IMG/VR virus record: IMGVR_UViG_3300021594_000451
Coordinates: 1-20,783 of that record
Strand: one strand, 5' to 3'
DNA length: 20,783 nucleotides
Origin: a virus
Shown: positions 7,353 through 14,505 of the stretch, one piece after another
Layout of the letters: every line of letters begins with the position of its first letter
How positions within the stretch are numbered: the first letter of the stretch is position 1
The notes under the pieces: model-generated
The model's database searches: none
What the model was told of the DNA's origin: nothing
What the model saw: the letters and a program-made list of their open reading frames with translations, nothing else
Translations under genes and position numbers: made by a program

Positions 7353-7521
7353 GGAGAAACTAAAACTCAATCTAACATTTTTGCAGTATAGGTTTTTATA
7401 CATGACCTTACTTGACAAATTGGAGTTCTTACAATCAGAGGAACAAACACCAGCAACAAAAGAATACTACCAAATAATCAAACAAGTCAAAGAACAACTT
7501 TGGAAAAAAATGGATGAATAA
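7345..7521 (+). CDS. Small hypothetical protein (58 aa)
   Basis: A 58-residue protein when started at ATG 7345, which overlaps the small terminase stop; a TTG at 7336 is the alternative. It is helical and rich in Leu, Gln and Lys: LKLNLTFLQYRFLYMTLLDK followed by a Glu/Gln-rich stretch. No motif is recognised. The stop and the next start overlap as TAATG (7519-7523). It lies in the coupled chain from terminase to methyltransferase. Confidence 0.6.
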   Translation: MSEEKLKLNLTFLQYRFLYMTLLDKLEFLQSEEQTPATKEYYQIIKQVKEQLWKKMDE

Positions 7522-8135
7522 TGAATACAAGTCCCAACATGGAAAGATGTGATCTACCCATCATCAAAGAAATGGTAGAGAAATACAATCTCAAAGGAGA
7601 TATAATTGAGTTCGGAACTTTCACTTGTGAGTCAGCACTATTTCTGGCATCACAATTCCCTGATAAAAAGATTTATACAATAGATCATTTTCAAGGATTG
7701 GAAAAGACATCAAAGTCATTACCATCAAGTAGTGATTGGACCGAAGGAGCATTTGCTCTTGGTCACCCTGACTATCAAGCAGGACATATCCCAAAGAACA
7801 TTGAGGAAGCAAAAGAGAAACTATCAAGAAGAGATAATATTGAATTGATCCTATCTGATGTTCATGATTTAACTCACCCCAACGATTATGGTATTGGTAA
7901 GTTAGCAGCAGCAAATGTTGATGTTGATATCTATGAACCAACAGTATCATCATTGGAGTTCCTAACCAAATGTGAGTGGAATGAAATCTTTATTAGGTTT
8001 GATGACTGGCATGGTAATGAAGTGGAATATGATGAACACGAAAGACTGGCGTTCATTGAATGGATTGAGAAGTATAATTACCAATACGAAATAACTCATG
8101 GGGGTTATATTGGAGGATCATTTGTAAAACGATAA
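7521..8135 (+). CDS. Class I SAM-dependent methyltransferase
   Basis: A 204-residue protein. Residues about 27-43 (GDIIEFGTFTCESALFLA) are the SAM-binding motif I of Rossmann-fold methyltransferases, and IYTIDHFQGL (about 51-60) is motif II with the acidic residue that binds the ribose. FIRFDDWHGN (about 157-166) could hold the catalytic or metal-binding acids, as in TylF/macrocin-type O-methyltransferases. The substrate is unknown: sugars, small molecules or surface polymers are known for relatives. The N-terminus lacks a signal, so it works in the cytoplasm. It stands between the terminase subunits, one base before a DNA methyltransferase gene. A role in modifying phage or host glycans is conceivable. 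Confidence 0.65.
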   Translation: MNTSPNMERCDLPIIKEMVEKYNLKGDIIEFGTFTCESALFLASQFPDKKIYTIDHFQGLEKTSKSLPSSSDWTEGAFALGHPDYQAGHIPKNIEEAKEKLSRRDNIELILSDVHDLTHPNDYGIGKLAAANVDVDIYEPTVSSLEFLTKCEWNEIFIRFDDWHGNEVEYDEHERLAFIEWIEKYNYQYEITHGGYIGGSFVKR

Positions 8136-8136
8136 T

Positions 8137-9807
8137 ATGAATATAGATTTAAGATTAGGAGATTGCCTTGAGGTATTAAAAACAATACCAGATAACTCAG
8201 TTGATTCAGTTGTAACAGATCCCCCTTATGGAATTGGATTTATGAATAAGGAGTGGGACAATCCACAGAAACATCAAGAACTAATTGAGAGAGAAAAGAA
8301 TAGAAGTGAAGAAAGATTTGCTGATGGTAAAAGTCCTGTTAAAGGTGGGTTCTCAAAAGGAGTTCAACCAGGTCTTCCAATAGGAGGAGCTAAGGAAGGT
8401 AAATGGTTTCAGGATTGGTGTGAGTTATGGGCTCGTGAATGTTTTAGAATACTAAAACCAGGAGGACACGCATTATCATTTTCAGCACCACGAACTTACC
8501 ACAGAATGGCAACAGCATTTGAGGATAGTGGTTTCCAAATTAGAGATCAGATTATGTGGGTATTTGGATCAGGGTTTCCTAAATCACATAACATCGGTAA
8601 AGCGATAGATAAGATTGCTGGTAGAGTTGATATGAGTTGTGATGAAGTAAAATTAAAACTTAAAGGACTTTATGATAAGAGTGGAAAATCATTATCAAAG
8701 ATAAGTGAAGAGTGTGGATTTAATGCTTCAGGATATATTAAAACAGAAAGCAATAAACCTGACCCATGGACGACAACATTACCAACAGTAGAAAAATGGA
8801 AAGTAATTAGTAAGGTAATCAACGCAACAGAAGAAGAAAAAGATGAAATATCAAATCTATTACAATCAGCAGAGAGAGAAGTAATTGGAACAAAGAGTTC
8901 AGGATTGTTTAATGGAGGTGAAGGTAATTCTGTTGGTGGAACAATAGTAGCAGAGGTTGATATTACAATTGCTAATATTGAAGAAGCGAAAGAGTGGGAA
9001 GGTTGGGGAACAGCACTCAAACCAGCACACGAACCAATAGTGATGGCACGAAAACCATTAAGTGAAAAGTCCATCGCAGAGAATGTATTGAAACACGGAA
9101 CAGGTGGAATAAATATTGATGGTTCAAGGATTGAAATGAAAGACAAAGAGAACATCAACTTTGATAGACCAAGAGTTAGAAAAGACCAGAAAGAATATTT
9201 TGGAAATCATTTACCCGATGGTTATTTTAAGAACGAAGATTTCAAAGAGTATAATGAGTCAGGTAGATTTCCAGCAAACATAATCTTTGATGAAGAGGCG
9301 GGACAACTATTGGACGAACAGAGTGGAACATTGAAAGGTGGAGCCAGTCGTTTCTTCTATTGTCCCAAGGCAGCAAAGAAAGATAGAAACGAGGGTATGC
9401 CAGAGGAAGTAGGTGTATTTCATCAAAGACCAAGAAGAGAAGATGGAACAATAATATACAAAGAAAAGAACCCTGAAGAATGGGCTGAAGCGATGAGTAA
9501 ATTACCTCGTAAAGATAAGACATCTAAAGCGGCAGCAGAAGAAAAACTACAGGACAATACTAACGGATTAAAGAACAATCACCCCACAGTCAAACCTACA
9601 GACCTAATGAGATATCTAATCAATCTCATTACCCCACCAAATGGAGTAGTATTAGACCCGTTTATGGGTAGTGGTTCAACAGGTAAAGCGGCTGTTAGAT
9701 GTGGGGTCAATTTCATCGGTATTGAAAAAGAACAGGAGTATATGGATATTGCGAAAGCGAGAATAGAACACGAAAAGAATAAACCGGTTCAAGGTAAATT
9801 ATTATAA
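8137..9807 (+). CDS. DNA methyltransferase, beta class (probable N6-adenine)
   Basis: A 556-residue protein. DPPYG at residues 28-32 is catalytic motif IV of amino-methyltransferases, and LDPFMGSGST (506-515) is the SAM-binding motif I. Motif IV before motif I defines the beta class (N6_N4_Mtase family). DPPY favours adenine N6, although N4-cytosine is possible. HPTVKPTDLM precedes motif I, as usual. It is longer than simple members (about 250-400) because of a central region. Residues about 157-260 contain an HTH-like stretch (LSKISEECGF, then WTTTLPTVEKW), perhaps for target recognition. FFYCPKAAKKDR (about 405-416) is a known conserved feature of large phage members. No restriction endonuclease is adjacent, so it is an orphan, probably protecting phage DNA. 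Confidence 0.85.
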   Translation: MNIDLRLGDCLEVLKTIPDNSVDSVVTDPPYGIGFMNKEWDNPQKHQELIEREKNRSEERFADGKSPVKGGFSKGVQPGLPIGGAKEGKWFQDWCELWARECFRILKPGGHALSFSAPRTYHRMATAFEDSGFQIRDQIMWVFGSGFPKSHNIGKAIDKIAGRVDMSCDEVKLKLKGLYDKSGKSLSKISEECGFNASGYIKTESNKPDPWTTTLPTVEKWKVISKVINATEEEKDEISNLLQSAEREVIGTKSSGLFNGGEGNSVGGTIVAEVDITIANIEEAKEWEGWGTALKPAHEPIVMARKPLSEKSIAENVLKHGTGGINIDGSRIEMKDKENINFDRPRVRKDQKEYFGNHLPDGYFKNEDFKEYNESGRFPANIIFDEEAGQLLDEQSGTLKGGASRFFYCPKAAKKDRNEGMPEEVGVFHQRPRREDGTIIYKEKNPEEWAEAMSKLPRKDKTSKAAAEEKLQDNTNGLKNNHPTVKPTDLMRYLINLITPPNGVVLDPFMGSGSTGKAAVRCGVNFIGIEKEQEYMDIAKARIEHEKNKPVQGKLL

Positions 9808-9998
9808 TGCCAAAATCACAAAAGAGAGGTGGGGAGAAAGCCCACAGAAGAAGAGTCAAAGCACGAAACGAAAGACTGAGAGGTGCTGCAAAAAGATATA
9901 CAGATCTATTCAACCAAAAACTAAAAGAAGCATTAGAAAAGAAACAGAATGAAAATACAGACAACGGAGGTATTTCAATTACTACAGGAAACCAATAA
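9807..9998 (+). CDS. Small very basic protein before the large terminase
   Basis: A 63-residue protein, nearly one third Lys/Arg in the first 45 residues (KSQKRGGEKAHRRRVKARNE), then a helix (YTDLFNQKLKEALEKKQ) and a polar tail. It starts at a TAATG overlap with the methyltransferase stop. Its end overlaps the large terminase start by 50 bases, which suggests real coupling or that one start is misplaced. The charge suggests nucleic-acid binding; a packaging accessory is the simplest guess from position. No family is recognised. Confidence 0.55.
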   Translation: MPKSQKRGGEKAHRRRVKARNERLRGAAKRYTDLFNQKLKEALEKKQNENTDNGGISITTGNQ

Positions 9999-11088
9999 GC
10001 GTGTTTGTGTATTTCAAGGATCGTCAAGAGCAGGTAAGACTTATAACATCATCTTATGGTTGGTTATAGATCTATTGAATAAAGAGAATAAGGTATATTC
10101 AATAATTAGAAAAACACTACCAGCACTCAAAGGATCGGTCCTCAGGGATCTAAAAGAGATCTTACTGATGTTGGATCTTTATGATGATTCCAAGTGGCAC
10201 TCTGTTGATGGTTATTATGAACTTGGATCAAATATTATTGAATGGTTCTCCGTAGATGATGAAACAAAATTACGAGGAAGAAAGAGAGACATAGGATTTG
10301 TCAATGAGGCAACAGAGATAACCTATGATGAGTATGTTCAATTATCACTGAGAACTGGTGAAAGAATGATATTGGATTTCAACCCCTCACTATGGCAGTC
10401 ATGGTTATATGATTTGGAAAGTGATCCTGATTGTCTATACAAGATTGTGACTTATAAGGACAACCCCTTCCTACCAAAACTACAGGTAGAAGAGATTGAG
10501 AAACTAAAAGACAGAGATCCAAATTTATGGAGAGTATTCGGTCTTGGTCTTAAAGGTATTCCAACAAGAGTTGTTTTCTCACACCAAAAAGAATATACTG
10601 AACTACCACCATCAGCAAAGAAACTTGGGTATTCAGTAGACTTCGGGTATAATGACCCTACGACTTTAATAGAGGTCCATAAAGACAACGAATCAATTTA
10701 TGTGAAGGAATTACTATATCTTAGAAACACGACCATAAATGACCTTATTTACAAGATTAAGGACCTTAACATAAATCTCAAAGATGATTTCATTTGTGAT
10801 TCAGCAAATCCACAGGGTATAGCAGAGATGGTAAGAGCTGGCATAAATGCAAAGCCAGTCAAGAAAGATACAATACTAGCAGGTATAGATCAGATCAAAA
10901 GAAACAATCTTTTTGTTCATAGAGATTCAGAACATATATGGGAAGAACTAAATTCTTATGTATGGAAACAAGATAAAAATGGTAACAACCTTGACGAACC
11001 TGAAGACAAGAATAACCACCTAATAGATCCCCTAAGATATATTATGACCATGAAGTCCATGAGGAATACTGGCATATACATTTTATAA
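9949..11088 (+). CDS. terL: Terminase large subunit
   Basis: A 379-residue ATPase-nuclease that pumps DNA into the procapsid and cuts it. Walker A is GSSRAGKT (24-31). Walker B with the catalytic glutamate is IGFVNEA (115-121). The coupling motif region is LDFNPS (142-147). The C-terminal RNase H-like nuclease shows D231 (SVDFGYNDPTT), D284 (FICDSANPQG) and D360 (HLIDPLRY), the acidic triad of this family. The length is at the short end for the family (about 400-500), but both domains are complete. The ATG at 9949 leaves the usual short lead before Walker A and overlaps the preceding gene by 50 bases. The tail-chaperone-like gene follows after 35 bases. I see no intein or intron. Confidence 0.92.
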   Translation: MKIQTTEVFQLLQETNKRVCVFQGSSRAGKTYNIILWLVIDLLNKENKVYSIIRKTLPALKGSVLRDLKEILLMLDLYDDSKWHSVDGYYELGSNIIEWFSVDDETKLRGRKRDIGFVNEATEITYDEYVQLSLRTGERMILDFNPSLWQSWLYDLESDPDCLYKIVTYKDNPFLPKLQVEEIEKLKDRDPNLWRVFGLGLKGIPTRVVFSHQKEYTELPPSAKKLGYSVDFGYNDPTTLIEVHKDNESIYVKELLYLRNTTINDLIYKIKDLNINLKDDFICDSANPQGIAEMVRAGINAKPVKKDTILAGIDQIKRNNLFVHRDSEHIWEELNSYVWKQDKNGNNLDEPEDKNNHLIDPLRYIMTMKSMRNTGIYIL

Positions 11089-11123
11089 AATGGGTCTTAC
11101 AATAAAATAATATTTATAGATAT

Positions 11124-11873
11124 ATGGAAAGTAGAATTGAGTTTAACGGAAGAACAATCAATGTAAAAGAACCAACAATTTCTGATTGGTCCAAAGTAAT
11201 GAAGTATAAAGATCTCCTTGATGAAGAAGAGTTATACTACAAGATGCTTGAGGAGTTCACAGGTATGGAGAAAGATGAAATACTAAAACAAGATGCTGCA
11301 ACCATCATAAGACTTGGAGATGTTGTTCAGAATATTCTGATGTATGAGAACAAAAAATTATACAAAGAGATTGAACATAATGGTATGACTTATGAACTAA
11401 TGGATGTGAATAACATTTCATTTGGTCAATATGTGGACCTTGATACATTCCTGAGAAAAGACGAGAAGTATAGAACTCAACACCTGAATGAACTAGCAGC
11501 TTATATGTATGTTGAGAAGGGAACAAAATATGCTGACTCAGATTTCAAAAAGAGAATTGAGGCGATGAAGGATTTACCGATCAAGTATATCAATTCAGCG
11601 CTTTTTTTTTTATTGAATATAGCCGAGGCGTCTCAAAGTCTTACCCAGCTTTATTCCAAGAACAAATTGATGGTGAAGCTGCTCAAGATAAGAATAGTTT
11701 TTATGGTCATTACGGATGGTATCATGCAATTTCACAACTCGCCGAAAACAAAGTATGGCAAATTGATAATGTGGTTAATCTCACCCTTATCAGTGCCCTT
11801 AATCACCTTAGCTACCTTGTGGATCTTAATAAAGAGAAGGAGAGAGAAATCAAAAAGCAACAACAGCAAATAA
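11124..11873 (+). CDS. Tail-assembly-chaperone-like protein, frame-0 product
   Basis: Read without a frame change this gives 249 residues. The first 162 look like a real protein: IEFNGRTINVKEPTISDWSK at the start, and NGMTYELMDV with SFGQYVDLDTFL near the middle. The pattern resembles proteins lying just before tail genes in Bacteroidota phages, similar in position to lambda gpG. After a T10 tract (11602-11611) the frame-0 sequence becomes an implausible hydrophobic/basic tail (LISPLSVPLITLATLWILIK). The -1 frame instead gives protein-like sequence ending in an ATGA overlap with the next gene. The frame-0 product may be a short form, or an artefact of a wrong T count. The start lies behind an AT-rich 35-base gap with TAATATTTATAG. 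Role is inferred from position and frame switch. Confidence 0.6.
   Translation: MESRIEFNGRTINVKEPTISDWSKVMKYKDLLDEEELYYKMLEEFTGMEKDEILKQDAATIIRLGDVVQNILMYENKKLYKEIEHNGMTYELMDVNNISFGQYVDLDTFLRKDEKYRTQHLNELAAYMYVEKGTKYADSDFKKRIEAMKDLPIKYINSALFFLLNIAEASQSLTQLYSKNKLMVKLLKIRIVFMVITDGIMQFHNSPKTKYGKLIMWLISPLSVPLITLATLWILIKRRREKSKSNNSK
11602..11612 (+). other. Candidate -1 frameshift site (T10 A)
   Basis: Ten T followed by A. In frame 0 the codons are CTT TTT TTT TTA, so T TTT TTA (11606-11612) is a canonical X XXY YYZ slippery heptamer, the same as the HIV-1 site. Slipping back one base gives a 253-residue fusion. Transcriptional slippage on T10 or an assembly error in the run length would have the same effect. 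No strong downstream hairpin was seen, only GAG/CTC at 11625-11634. Confidence 0.6.
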
Positions 11874-11884
11874 AGAATAGATGA
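11609..11884 (+). CDS. -1 frame C-terminal half of the chaperone-like protein
   Basis: From 11609 the -1 frame is open for 91 codons to TGA 11882-11884. Its composition is balanced: FIEYSRGVSKSYPALFQEQ, NSFYGHYGWYHAISQLAENK, then VWQIDNVVNLTLISALNHLS and a Lys/Glu/Gln-rich helix. Many codons begin with G or A, as in the neighbouring genes. The stop overlaps the ATG of the next gene (ATGA, 11881-11884), the same coupling seen elsewhere here. Joined to frame 0 at the T tract it makes about 253 residues. In tailed phages the long form of the tail chaperone, made by frameshifting, binds the tape measure during tail assembly. Here that role is inference; the coding character of this frame is directly visible. 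Confidence 0.65.
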   Translation, partial: FIEYSRGVSKSYPALFQEQIDGEAAQDKNSFYGHYGWYHAISQLAENKVWQIDNVVNLTLISALNHLSYLVDLNKEKEREIKKQQQQIKNR

Positions 11885-14505
11885 GCTTAATTACATCAGG
11901 TTTAACAATACAGATTGACTTCACCAATACATCATCGTTGATAATCGGTGGTGGATCAGGGGTTGCAATTCTAAAGGCTACAAACTTAGCCAACCCATCA
12001 CTTTATTTTAGTGGGATCACAGGACAACTAGTCCAATCTGATGCTCAAGGATTTCAGAACCCTGTAACCTTACAATATTCAGGTATATCTGTATCACAAG
12101 GTGGTGTCGGTTTAACAAACCAATTGGGTGATTACGGAACTTATACAGATTATACAACATGGTTCATGTATAATCTTACTGGTGGAACTTATGTCCCATT
12201 CTACAACTCAGACAATCCCTCAAACTATTTGGGTCAAACAAATGGAGTAAGATGGTTTCAGATTGACACATTCAATCCTTTCAATGTAACACCTGATGGA
12301 CTTAGAACATATACATTTTATTCTGATAATAGTTCATGTAGTCCTGAGCCTGGTTATAGTGGAGTAACAAATCAATGGGTAATAGGATCAACAAGAGTAT
12401 ATCAATCAGGAACAAGTGCTGTAACAGAGGTATGGATCAATGGTGTATTGACTGGTCAAACAATTCAGACACAAACACTTAGAACATTTACAGATCCGAT
12501 ATTCCAATATCAAGCAACCAATAGTGGAGTAGCAGCCACAGAGTTCTTATTCTATGATCGTAGGTTATCAGATGCTGAGATGTCCACAACCTACAATTAT
12601 TTCTATAACAAATATTTCCAAGCTCCTGTTGTGGTAACTCCAACACCCACGACAACTAGCACCCCAACAGTTACACCAACGCCATCATCGTCCCCAATTT
12701 CTAGTCCGACACCAACAGCAACTCCGACAGTAACACCCACGATCTCCGTTACACCATCCAATACTCCAACCCCAAGTGTAACTCCATCAATATCAGCATC
12801 AGCTGTTCCACAAGTGAATATAAACTTTAAGACAATTGCTGATGATTTCAAATCAATGTCCAATTATCACAAACAGATCAATTCATTTGGATTGGGTAAT
12901 ATTGACGGGATAAGTTATTACACAACAAGTAGAGAGGGTGAGGACAATCCACATGCACAACCACCAATATTCCCATTACTATATGTTGTTCCATCTCAAG
13001 TAACGAATGACTTAAAATACAAGACATGGGATTTCAATACACTTGTAATGGACATCTCACAGAGAGATTTAGCCAATCAAACAGATACACTATCCGATAC
13101 ATTACAAATGCTTCAGGATATTATATCACAATTTAGATTATCCGTAACTCAATCAGAAGGTCTATACAACAACAAATACTATTTGGACACAGAGGTGAAT
13201 TGTATTCCATTCATGGAAAAACAAGTGGATCTAACAAATGGTTGGAATGGTTTATTGTCACTCAAGACAATGACCCCACTCAATAGATGTGCTGCAGCAT
13301 TCAACACTTGGACAGGGACAACAATTATTCATGATACAATCAATCTAAAAACATTCCATGATGATTTTAGAACACTATCAGAATTTCATAAGCAGATTAA
13401 CTCATTTGGTTTTGGTGAAGAGAGTGATCTAAGTTTTTGGACCGAGATGAGAGATAAGACTGACAACACACATTTCAACTCTCCAATATTCCCATTGTTA
13501 TATGTTATTCCTGGTGAGGTAATACAAAAGTTTGGGTTCATGGAATATACATTCACGATTATTGTGATGGATATTATTCAAAGGGATTTAGAAAATCAGA
13601 TTGATGTATTATCAGATACCAATCAAATCATGGATGATATCATTTCACAATTCAGATTGTCGGTTAATGATTCACTAGGTAATTTCAATGCGAAATATTA
13701 TCTACAAAATCCTGTAATATGTTCTCCATTTATTGAGCAGTATTCAGATCTTACTGGTGGATGGACAGCAAAGATTGCAGTTCAAGTTATGAACTCCCTT
13801 GATAGATGTGATGCGGCGTTTAATTCGTGGTTGACCCCAACAGCAACAGCTACTCCTACGAACACTCCAACACCAAGTATTACACCATCGGAGACACCGA
13901 CAAGCACACCAACAGAAACTCCTACTGCTACCCCAACTTGTCCTGTAACAACTCAATACCTTGAAGTAAAGTTGGAAGACAATACCAAGTTTAAACTTAT
14001 ACTTTGGAATCAACCGAACTTTACATCACCAGCAAATGCAAATTGTGATTACATCATTTCAGGATGTGCATATGGATCTCTCGGAACGGTTTATTGTGCA
14101 GCAGAAACAATAAACTCAGGGCAACATCAACACCAATTTAATTTGGCACCTGTGTTATTACCTGGTGAAATAGTTGTTGCGTTTGATGTTTATAGTTATA
14201 CATTATCAGGATGTCCTTGTCCTGTGGATCTAATCTTACCGATCGGACCGACGCCTACTCCAACCGTTACTACAACTACTACAAATACTCCAACCGTTAC
14301 TCCAACTAATACAAATACACCAACGGTTACAATGACACCAACAAATACGCAAACACAGACCCCAAGTTCTAGTATGACACCAACCCCATCCGTAACACCT
14401 ACATTCACACCGACACCAAGCACAACACCAGCAGGCGGGGCAGCAGTATGGAACACAACAAATGTGGATTGGAATAATCAAACAGGACTTTGGAACACAG
14501 TATAA
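11881..14505 (+). CDS. LamG-like multidomain virion protein with Thr/Pro linkers
   Basis: An 874-residue protein. Residues 1-247 look like a concanavalin/LamG-type beta-sandwich: LITSGLTIQIDFTN, then TEVWINGVLTGQ and the typical ATEFLFYDRRLSDAEMS ending; such domains often bind glycans. Three Thr/Pro/Ser-rich linkers follow at about 250-310, 651-687 and 787-852. Between the first two lie two copies of one domain (312-477 and 484-650), sharing HKQINSFG, FPLLYV, VMDI.QRDL.NQ.D.LSDT and DIISQFRLSV. A Cys-containing beta domain lies at about 688-786. The C-terminus has three WN units (VWNTTNVDWNNQTGLWNTV). There is no signal peptide. It is probably a surface-exposed tail or neck protein; the duplicated domain's fold is unknown to me. 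It is coupled to the chaperone-like gene by ATGA. Confidence 0.65.
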   Translation: MSLITSGLTIQIDFTNTSSLIIGGGSGVAILKATNLANPSLYFSGITGQLVQSDAQGFQNPVTLQYSGISVSQGGVGLTNQLGDYGTYTDYTTWFMYNLTGGTYVPFYNSDNPSNYLGQTNGVRWFQIDTFNPFNVTPDGLRTYTFYSDNSSCSPEPGYSGVTNQWVIGSTRVYQSGTSAVTEVWINGVLTGQTIQTQTLRTFTDPIFQYQATNSGVAATEFLFYDRRLSDAEMSTTYNYFYNKYFQAPVVVTPTPTTTSTPTVTPTPSSSPISSPTPTATPTVTPTISVTPSNTPTPSVTPSISASAVPQVNINFKTIADDFKSMSNYHKQINSFGLGNIDGISYYTTSREGEDNPHAQPPIFPLLYVVPSQVTNDLKYKTWDFNTLVMDISQRDLANQTDTLSDTLQMLQDIISQFRLSVTQSEGLYNNKYYLDTEVNCIPFMEKQVDLTNGWNGLLSLKTMTPLNRCAAAFNTWTGTTIIHDTINLKTFHDDFRTLSEFHKQINSFGFGEESDLSFWTEMRDKTDNTHFNSPIFPLLYVIPGEVIQKFGFMEYTFTIIVMDIIQRDLENQIDVLSDTNQIMDDIISQFRLSVNDSLGNFNAKYYLQNPVICSPFIEQYSDLTGGWTAKIAVQVMNSLDRCDAAFNSWLTPTATATPTNTPTPSITPSETPTSTPTETPTATPTCPVTTQYLEVKLEDNTKFKLILWNQPNFTSPANANCDYIISGCAYGSLGTVYCAAETINSGQHQHQFNLAPVLLPGEIVVAFDVYSYTLSGCPCPVDLILPIGPTPTPTVTTTTTNTPTVTPTNTNTPTVTMTPTNTQTQTPSSSMTPTPSVTPTFTPTPSTTPAGGAAVWNTTNVDWNNQTGLWNTV
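12631..12801 (+). repeat. Thr/Pro-coding linker repeat 1
   Basis: Degenerate short repeats of the type ACACCAAC or ACTCCAAC encode TPT, TPS and TVTP units between the LamG-like domain and the first duplicated domain. On the opposite strand they give a spurious VGVGV-rich ORF. Confidence 0.8.
13831..13941 (+). repeat. Thr/Pro-coding linker repeat 2
   Basis: The same class of low-complexity repeat, encoding LTPTATATPTNTPTPSITPS and similar units, between the second duplicated domain and the Cys-containing domain. Confidence 0.8.
14245..14434 (+). repeat. Thr/Pro-coding linker repeat 3
   Basis: The longest of the three repeats. ACTCCAACCGTTAC and related units encode TPTVT, TNTP and TPTPS runs before the C-terminal WN motifs. 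Similar units at DNA level mean it could expand or contract by slippage or recombination with the other two. Confidence 0.8.

Follow-up and report, generated by a model that had tools for sequence, protein, structure and literature searches.

The window analysed here is the whole of a virus record of 20,783 bases, and all coordinates are positions in this window. A tail-chaperone-like gene follows directly on the terminase gene, and the features of the locus are listed below.

9949..11088, + strand: terminase large subunit (PF04466, 8.9e-20; PF17288, 9.9e-10), directly upstream of the chaperone-like gene
11124..11612, + strand: shared N-terminal part of the tail-chaperone-like gene, 163 codons in frame 0, kept in 320 loci
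11602..11611, + strand: T10 slip run, invariant in the window family (99/99 distinct sequences), T9 in the sister family
11603..11609, + strand: heptamer T_TTT_TTT, the likeliest ribosomal slip site, in a register common to both families
11606-11612, + strand: T_TTT_TTA, an overlapping alternative heptamer, in the window family only
11613..11873, + strand: alternative C-terminal tail in frame 0, 86 codons plus stop, open in all complete relatives, apparently dual-coded with the -1 tail
11612..11884, + strand: C-terminal part in the -1 frame, 90 codons plus TGA, charge-balanced; it would start at 11609 if the slip occurs at T_TTT_TTT
11881..14505, + strand: next gene, 874 aa with repeats rich in Thr and Pro; its ATG overlaps the -1 stop (ATGA)

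Frame 0 of the chaperone-like gene opened with the ATG at 11124 and ended with the TAA at 11871-11873, which gives a protein of 249 aa. The -1 frame was open from 11561 and ended with the TGA at 11882-11884, overlapping the ATG of the next gene at 11881, and the fused product had 253 aa. The T10 run, which is followed by an A in the window, was the longest homopolymer of the window, where the base composition predicts approximately 0.1 such T runs. The first-pass annotation, made from the letters of the window, had proposed a programmed -1 frameshift at this run, and it had placed the T10 site, both frames, the ATGA overlap and the 253 residues correctly throughout.

Relatives and Nonlabens phage P12024S had the terminase and chaperone-like genes in the same order. 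Just upstream of the terminase gene, the window carried a gene for an N6/N4 DNA methyltransferase (8137-9807; PF01555, 6.1e-39). The same gene was present near the terminase in one relative (L106), and other genes were present there in two more (L118 and L148). The stretch at 7521-8135 encoded a relative of TylF-like methyltransferases, with a match below the cut-off (PF05711, 5.2e-4). On the other side of the locus, a Pfam search with the next gene gave no match; its 874-aa product (11881-14505) contained two copies of one domain (...DDFRTLSEFHKQINSFGFG...).

The frame break in two phage families

Relatives of the window gene, forming the window family, were collected from viral contigs, 16 of which carried the fused protein. 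An aligned -1 C-terminal part was kept across 68 loci with identities of 41-100%, and wider alignments added further relatives. After merging identical 400-nt stretches, these amounted to 99 distinct sequences. The run was exactly T10 and in the same phase in all 99, the C-terminal part always lay in the -1 frame, and frame 0 stayed open for 78-90 codons past the run in each of the 98 complete relatives. The run was preceded by C, G or A and followed by A, G or, once, C. No direct relative of the window family was found among the cellular genomes and prophages of the genome collection or among the cultured phage records.

The frame-0 model, used as query in a structure search, pointed to a protein of the cultured Nonlabens phage P12024S. 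Its gene 38 directly follows the terminase gene and contains a T9 run in the same register (CTT TTT TTT TAT), and the product of its -1 frame is homologous to the C-terminal part of the window protein (hhalign E 1.7e-7, probability 94%). The annotation gives genes 38 and 39 (L320, JQ823122, 23136-23830) as two separate hypothetical proteins; in their sequence, they look like one tail-chaperone-like gene that is frameshifted at T9. A search with gene 38 yielded 63 loci, and the inspected loci of this sister family had T9 (one T10) in the register of the window family. The frame break was thus kept in every distinct T10 sequence as well as in the inspected sister loci, which supports the proposal that this tail-chaperone-like gene, from a phage of Bacteroidota type, is programmed to change frame at the T run.

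The -1 C-terminal part of the sister family had a WGWY motif in common with the window family, at approximately 27% identity. A GDGI motif common to the frame-0 tails of both families was discarded as mechanical, being WGWY read in +1. Frame 0 continued for 55-84 codons past the run in most sister sequences, but for only 16-25 in the P12024-like members. In P12024S it ended 25 codons after the shared part, and since P12024S and L324 are without the long frame-0 tail, this tail is not universal. P12024S and P12024L accordingly resemble the window in the position of the gene right after the terminase, the register of the T run and the homologous -1 part, and differ from it in their early frame-0 stop and in having T9 instead of T10.

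Slip site and mechanism of the frame change

Across the run, the window family has the codons NTT TTT TTT TTR, where the sister family has NTT TTT TTT TAY. The exact heptamer originally put forward, T_TTT_TTA, did not hold up as the common site. Since T_TTT_TTT (11603-11609) is present in both families and T_TTT_TTA is confined to the window family, the alignments make the former the likeliest slip site of both. A slip at either heptamer would give 253 residues, with F or L at position 163 as the sole difference.

The -1 frame change most likely occurs by ribosomal slippage. We prefer this mechanism because T_TTT_TTT and the encoded amino acids account for all of the conserved T's, and because ribosomal slippage is the rule in the tail-chaperone gene class. 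The alternative that survives best is transcriptional slippage, in which RNA polymerase would add one U (or drop two) on the T9 or T10 run, so that some of the mRNAs encode the -1 ending. Programmed transcriptional realignment operates in Shigella mxiE (T run) and Thermus dnaX (A9), which are like the window gene in their homopolymer of at least 9 and unlike it in that the polymerase slips and no phage tail role is involved. The frame switch studied here likewise lies at a homopolymer of about 9 or more, and the T9 or T10 run of every member exceeds the length of 8 above which T runs are known to support programmed transcriptional realignment in bacteria (PMC3711429). A high share of both products, as transcriptional slippage could provide, would also fit coding in both frames.

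Transcriptional slippage moreover needs no downstream RNA structure, and none was found: RNAalifold on the overlap gave zero pairs and no conserved RNA fold, and single-sequence folding was near the shuffle level. An RNA stimulator of slippage was rejected on the same grounds. However, the T6G site of P2 also functions without a downstream structure (PMC3091744), and the conserved T's are also explained by T_TTT_TTT together with amino-acid constraint at the flanking codons. That T10 is invariant, down to the wobble T of the NTT codon, was dropped as a proof of transcriptional slippage, since T_TTT_TTT needs that T. The +1 frame, which corresponds to a one-base deletion, was not uniformly closed. 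On balance, we regard transcriptional slippage as possible but rather unlikely.

Probable coding in both frames past the T run

The frame-0 tail had been dismissed as implausible in the first-pass annotation, which expected a short and a long form of the protein. In the relatives, this tail was open over 234-270 nt, conserved and constrained, which contradicts the former view, and the sequences point to two alternative full-length endings in place of the short and long forms. When the -1 protein was synonymously re-coded with the codon usage found in these phages (or, in a separate run, that of the window itself), no more than 0.3% of the draws (P<=0.003) left frame 0 open for 78 codons, for each of the 26 representatives, and the median frame-0 opening of the re-coded sequences was 6-21 codons. 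Of 300 pairs, 283 had a lower synonymous difference in the overlap than upstream. For the sister family, the 4-fold wobble identity rose from 0.42 upstream to 0.615 within the overlap and fell to 0.41 beyond the frame-0 stop, this final value being based on few sites.

Both frames were open and under purifying constraint, and at the sequence level the overlap of approximately 240 nt appears to be dual-coding, which would give two proteins of similar length (249 aa and 253 aa) with alternative endings. The frame-0 tail contained a hydrophobic segment (19-residue Kyte-Doolittle mean 1.9-2.8), was helical and had a basic end. In the majority of members, though not in every one, its hydrophobicity was above that of the no-stop simulation; it is partly a mechanical outcome of the frame relation. 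The predicted structure of the -1 C-terminal part was of low confidence and was left out of the argument. A conserved +1 stop was considered as a sign of a third product and rejected, as it was not significant per genome and was broken in 2 of the 99 sequences.

Most frame-0 stops lay 5-32 nt before the -1 stop and near the next start, as would be expected from a plain lambda-like frameshift in which frame 0 is open only for translational coupling to the next gene. However, stop avoidance alone did not reproduce the observed constraint. The 4-fold wobble identity was 0.66 in the overlap and 0.41 in the shared upstream N-terminal part, and the amino-acid identity of the frame-0 tail was 0.487, whereas the no-stop simulations, which ignore phylogeny, reached at most 0.43 and 0.345, respectively; the upstream control has the same tree. 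The wobbles of Ala, Gly, Pro and Thr, which are untouched by stop avoidance, were also constrained, with an identity of 0.635 in the overlap compared with 0.427 upstream. Translational coupling as the only reason for the open frame is consequently improbable.

The strong nucleotide conservation over some 240 nt could also have its origin in an RNA or DNA element (a structure or a signal) instead of two proteins. RNA structure does not account for the wobble constraint, because RNAalifold finds no pairs and folding is near the shuffle level. Furthermore, frame-0 stops were avoided along the whole stretch and hydrophobic residues were favoured in frame 0, which makes such an element very unlikely. 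Although a T run is a classic site of indel errors, a sequencing or assembly error (the true count being 8 or 11, as the first-pass annotation had allowed) or a pseudogene, in a gene that is really one frame, has negligible probability, because the same run and break recur across 99 distinct relatives from many metagenomes, the inspected T9 and T10 sisters keep the break, and two cultured isolate genomes have it; judged by this recurrence, the frame break is genuine.

Possible relation to tail chaperones and proposed role

In the shared N-terminal part, 7 of the 26 members weakly matched PF10109 (Phage_TAC_7, phage tail assembly chaperone E/41/14; best 1.1e-4), and 19 of them weakly matched phrog_166, annotated as "tail protein" (best 9.9e-6). 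The window's own protein had no significant Pfam match, including PF10109, and a PDB fold search gave no match. Its neighbours among viral structures (BFVD) included proteins annotated as tail assembly chaperones, with weak scores. One record, G003, whose locus matches the N-terminal part at 100%, encoded a tape-measure protein approximately 12 kb downstream (PHROGs, E 8.7e-16) and also carried portal and head-protease-like genes; a search of six relatives with two Pfam tape-measure families gave no match. Taken together, these profile matches and the gene content suggest that the gene probably encodes a tail-assembly chaperone. A Bacteroidota host is likely, since the nearest terminases in named phages are those of Flavobacterium phages (35% identity). 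A protein of Flavobacterium phage 6H was not retained as a relative, the relation being weak and its -1 part not alignable.

The gene had initially been described as lying just before the tail genes and as the equivalent of lambda G/GT. A tape-measure gene is indeed found downstream, but the chaperone-like gene adjoins the terminase and not the tape-measure gene. The lambda equivalence is supported by the conserved frame switch, the weak chaperone profile matches and the tape-measure gene, but not by the long frame-0 ending. In lambda, gpG is the unshifted short form and gpGT the shifted extension, whose T domain binds the major tail protein (PMC5009743). The window gene shares with gpG/gpGT a single start, a -1 slip conserved at a slippery site across distant phages, a C-terminal part in the -1 frame with two overlapping frames, and a tape-measure gene in the genome. 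It differs in its T10 or T9 homopolymer, its own conserved frame-0 tail and its place beside the terminase, and no sequence relation between the window protein and gpG was detected. Slip and in-frame stop are on average 26 nt apart in an actinophage set and 36 nt apart in the Xu set (PMC10885494). The corresponding distance in the window family was 234-270 nt with a mean of 239, so that the unshifted product does not stop soon after the slip as is typical.

In P2, gpE has 91 aa and E+E' has 142 aa, unlike the nearly equal lengths of the alternative endings in the window gene. The P2 slip takes place at TTTTTTG (T_TTT_TTG) without a downstream hairpin (PMC3091744), and the T-rich heptamer, the lack of a downstream hairpin and the weak PF10109 similarity of the 7 relatives all resemble this system, from which the window protein differs in having no PF10109 match. 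Within the literature searched, which was mostly outside subscription journals, no tail chaperone with two conserved endings was found.

We therefore propose, as the probable reading of the locus, a tail-chaperone-like gene with two alternative C-terminal endings that would be selected by a -1 slip at the T run. Ribosomes remaining in frame would produce the 249-aa protein, whose last 86 or so residues would form the hydrophobic, basic-ended helical tail. Ribosomes slipping at T_TTT_TTT, where tRNA-Phe would re-pair UUU with UUU in the P and A sites, would produce the 253-aa protein with the charge-balanced ending, and selection would act on both endings encoded by the same 240 nt. If the parallel with lambda gpG/gpGT and P2 gpE/gpE+E' holds, the N-terminal part common to both products may be what binds the tape-measure protein, and the -1 ending may serve to recruit tail-tube subunits. 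With somewhat less assurance, we also favour the view that a widespread group of Bacteroidota-type phages makes two tail-chaperone isoforms of near-equal length, whose differing C-terminal domains are dual-coded in a single stretch of DNA and of which the unshifted one has a hydrophobic helix that might insert into the membrane or coat the tape measure.

Tail chaperones made by frameshifting are known to comprise a short form and an extension. If the proposal is true, the frameshift here picks between two functional endings instead of adding an extension, and the unshifted ending, conserved over about 80 codons and overlapping the shifted one, forms a long stretch of dual coding within a phage structural module. 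Ordinary gene callers and frameshift tools based on stop distance would miss or mis-annotate such a region. The conserved T9 and T10 runs offer a clean natural test, for phages of this host group (likely Bacteroidota), of whether slippage is ribosomal or transcriptional.

Two minor observations concern the window and its relatives. The motif TATTTATA/TATAAATA occurred in 8 copies in the window compared with 2.3 expected, at 11111-11118 and seven other sites. In most relatives, a TATTTATA-like stretch lay immediately 5' of the chaperone start codon, and no Shine-Dalgarno sequence was evident beside it; this stretch is possibly a phage promoter or initiation motif. In addition, a 35.5-kb relative (G001) carried near-identical genes at both ends (L386 from 116 and L387 from 14273), which suggests that one end is duplicated or that the genome is nearly complete and circularly permuted.
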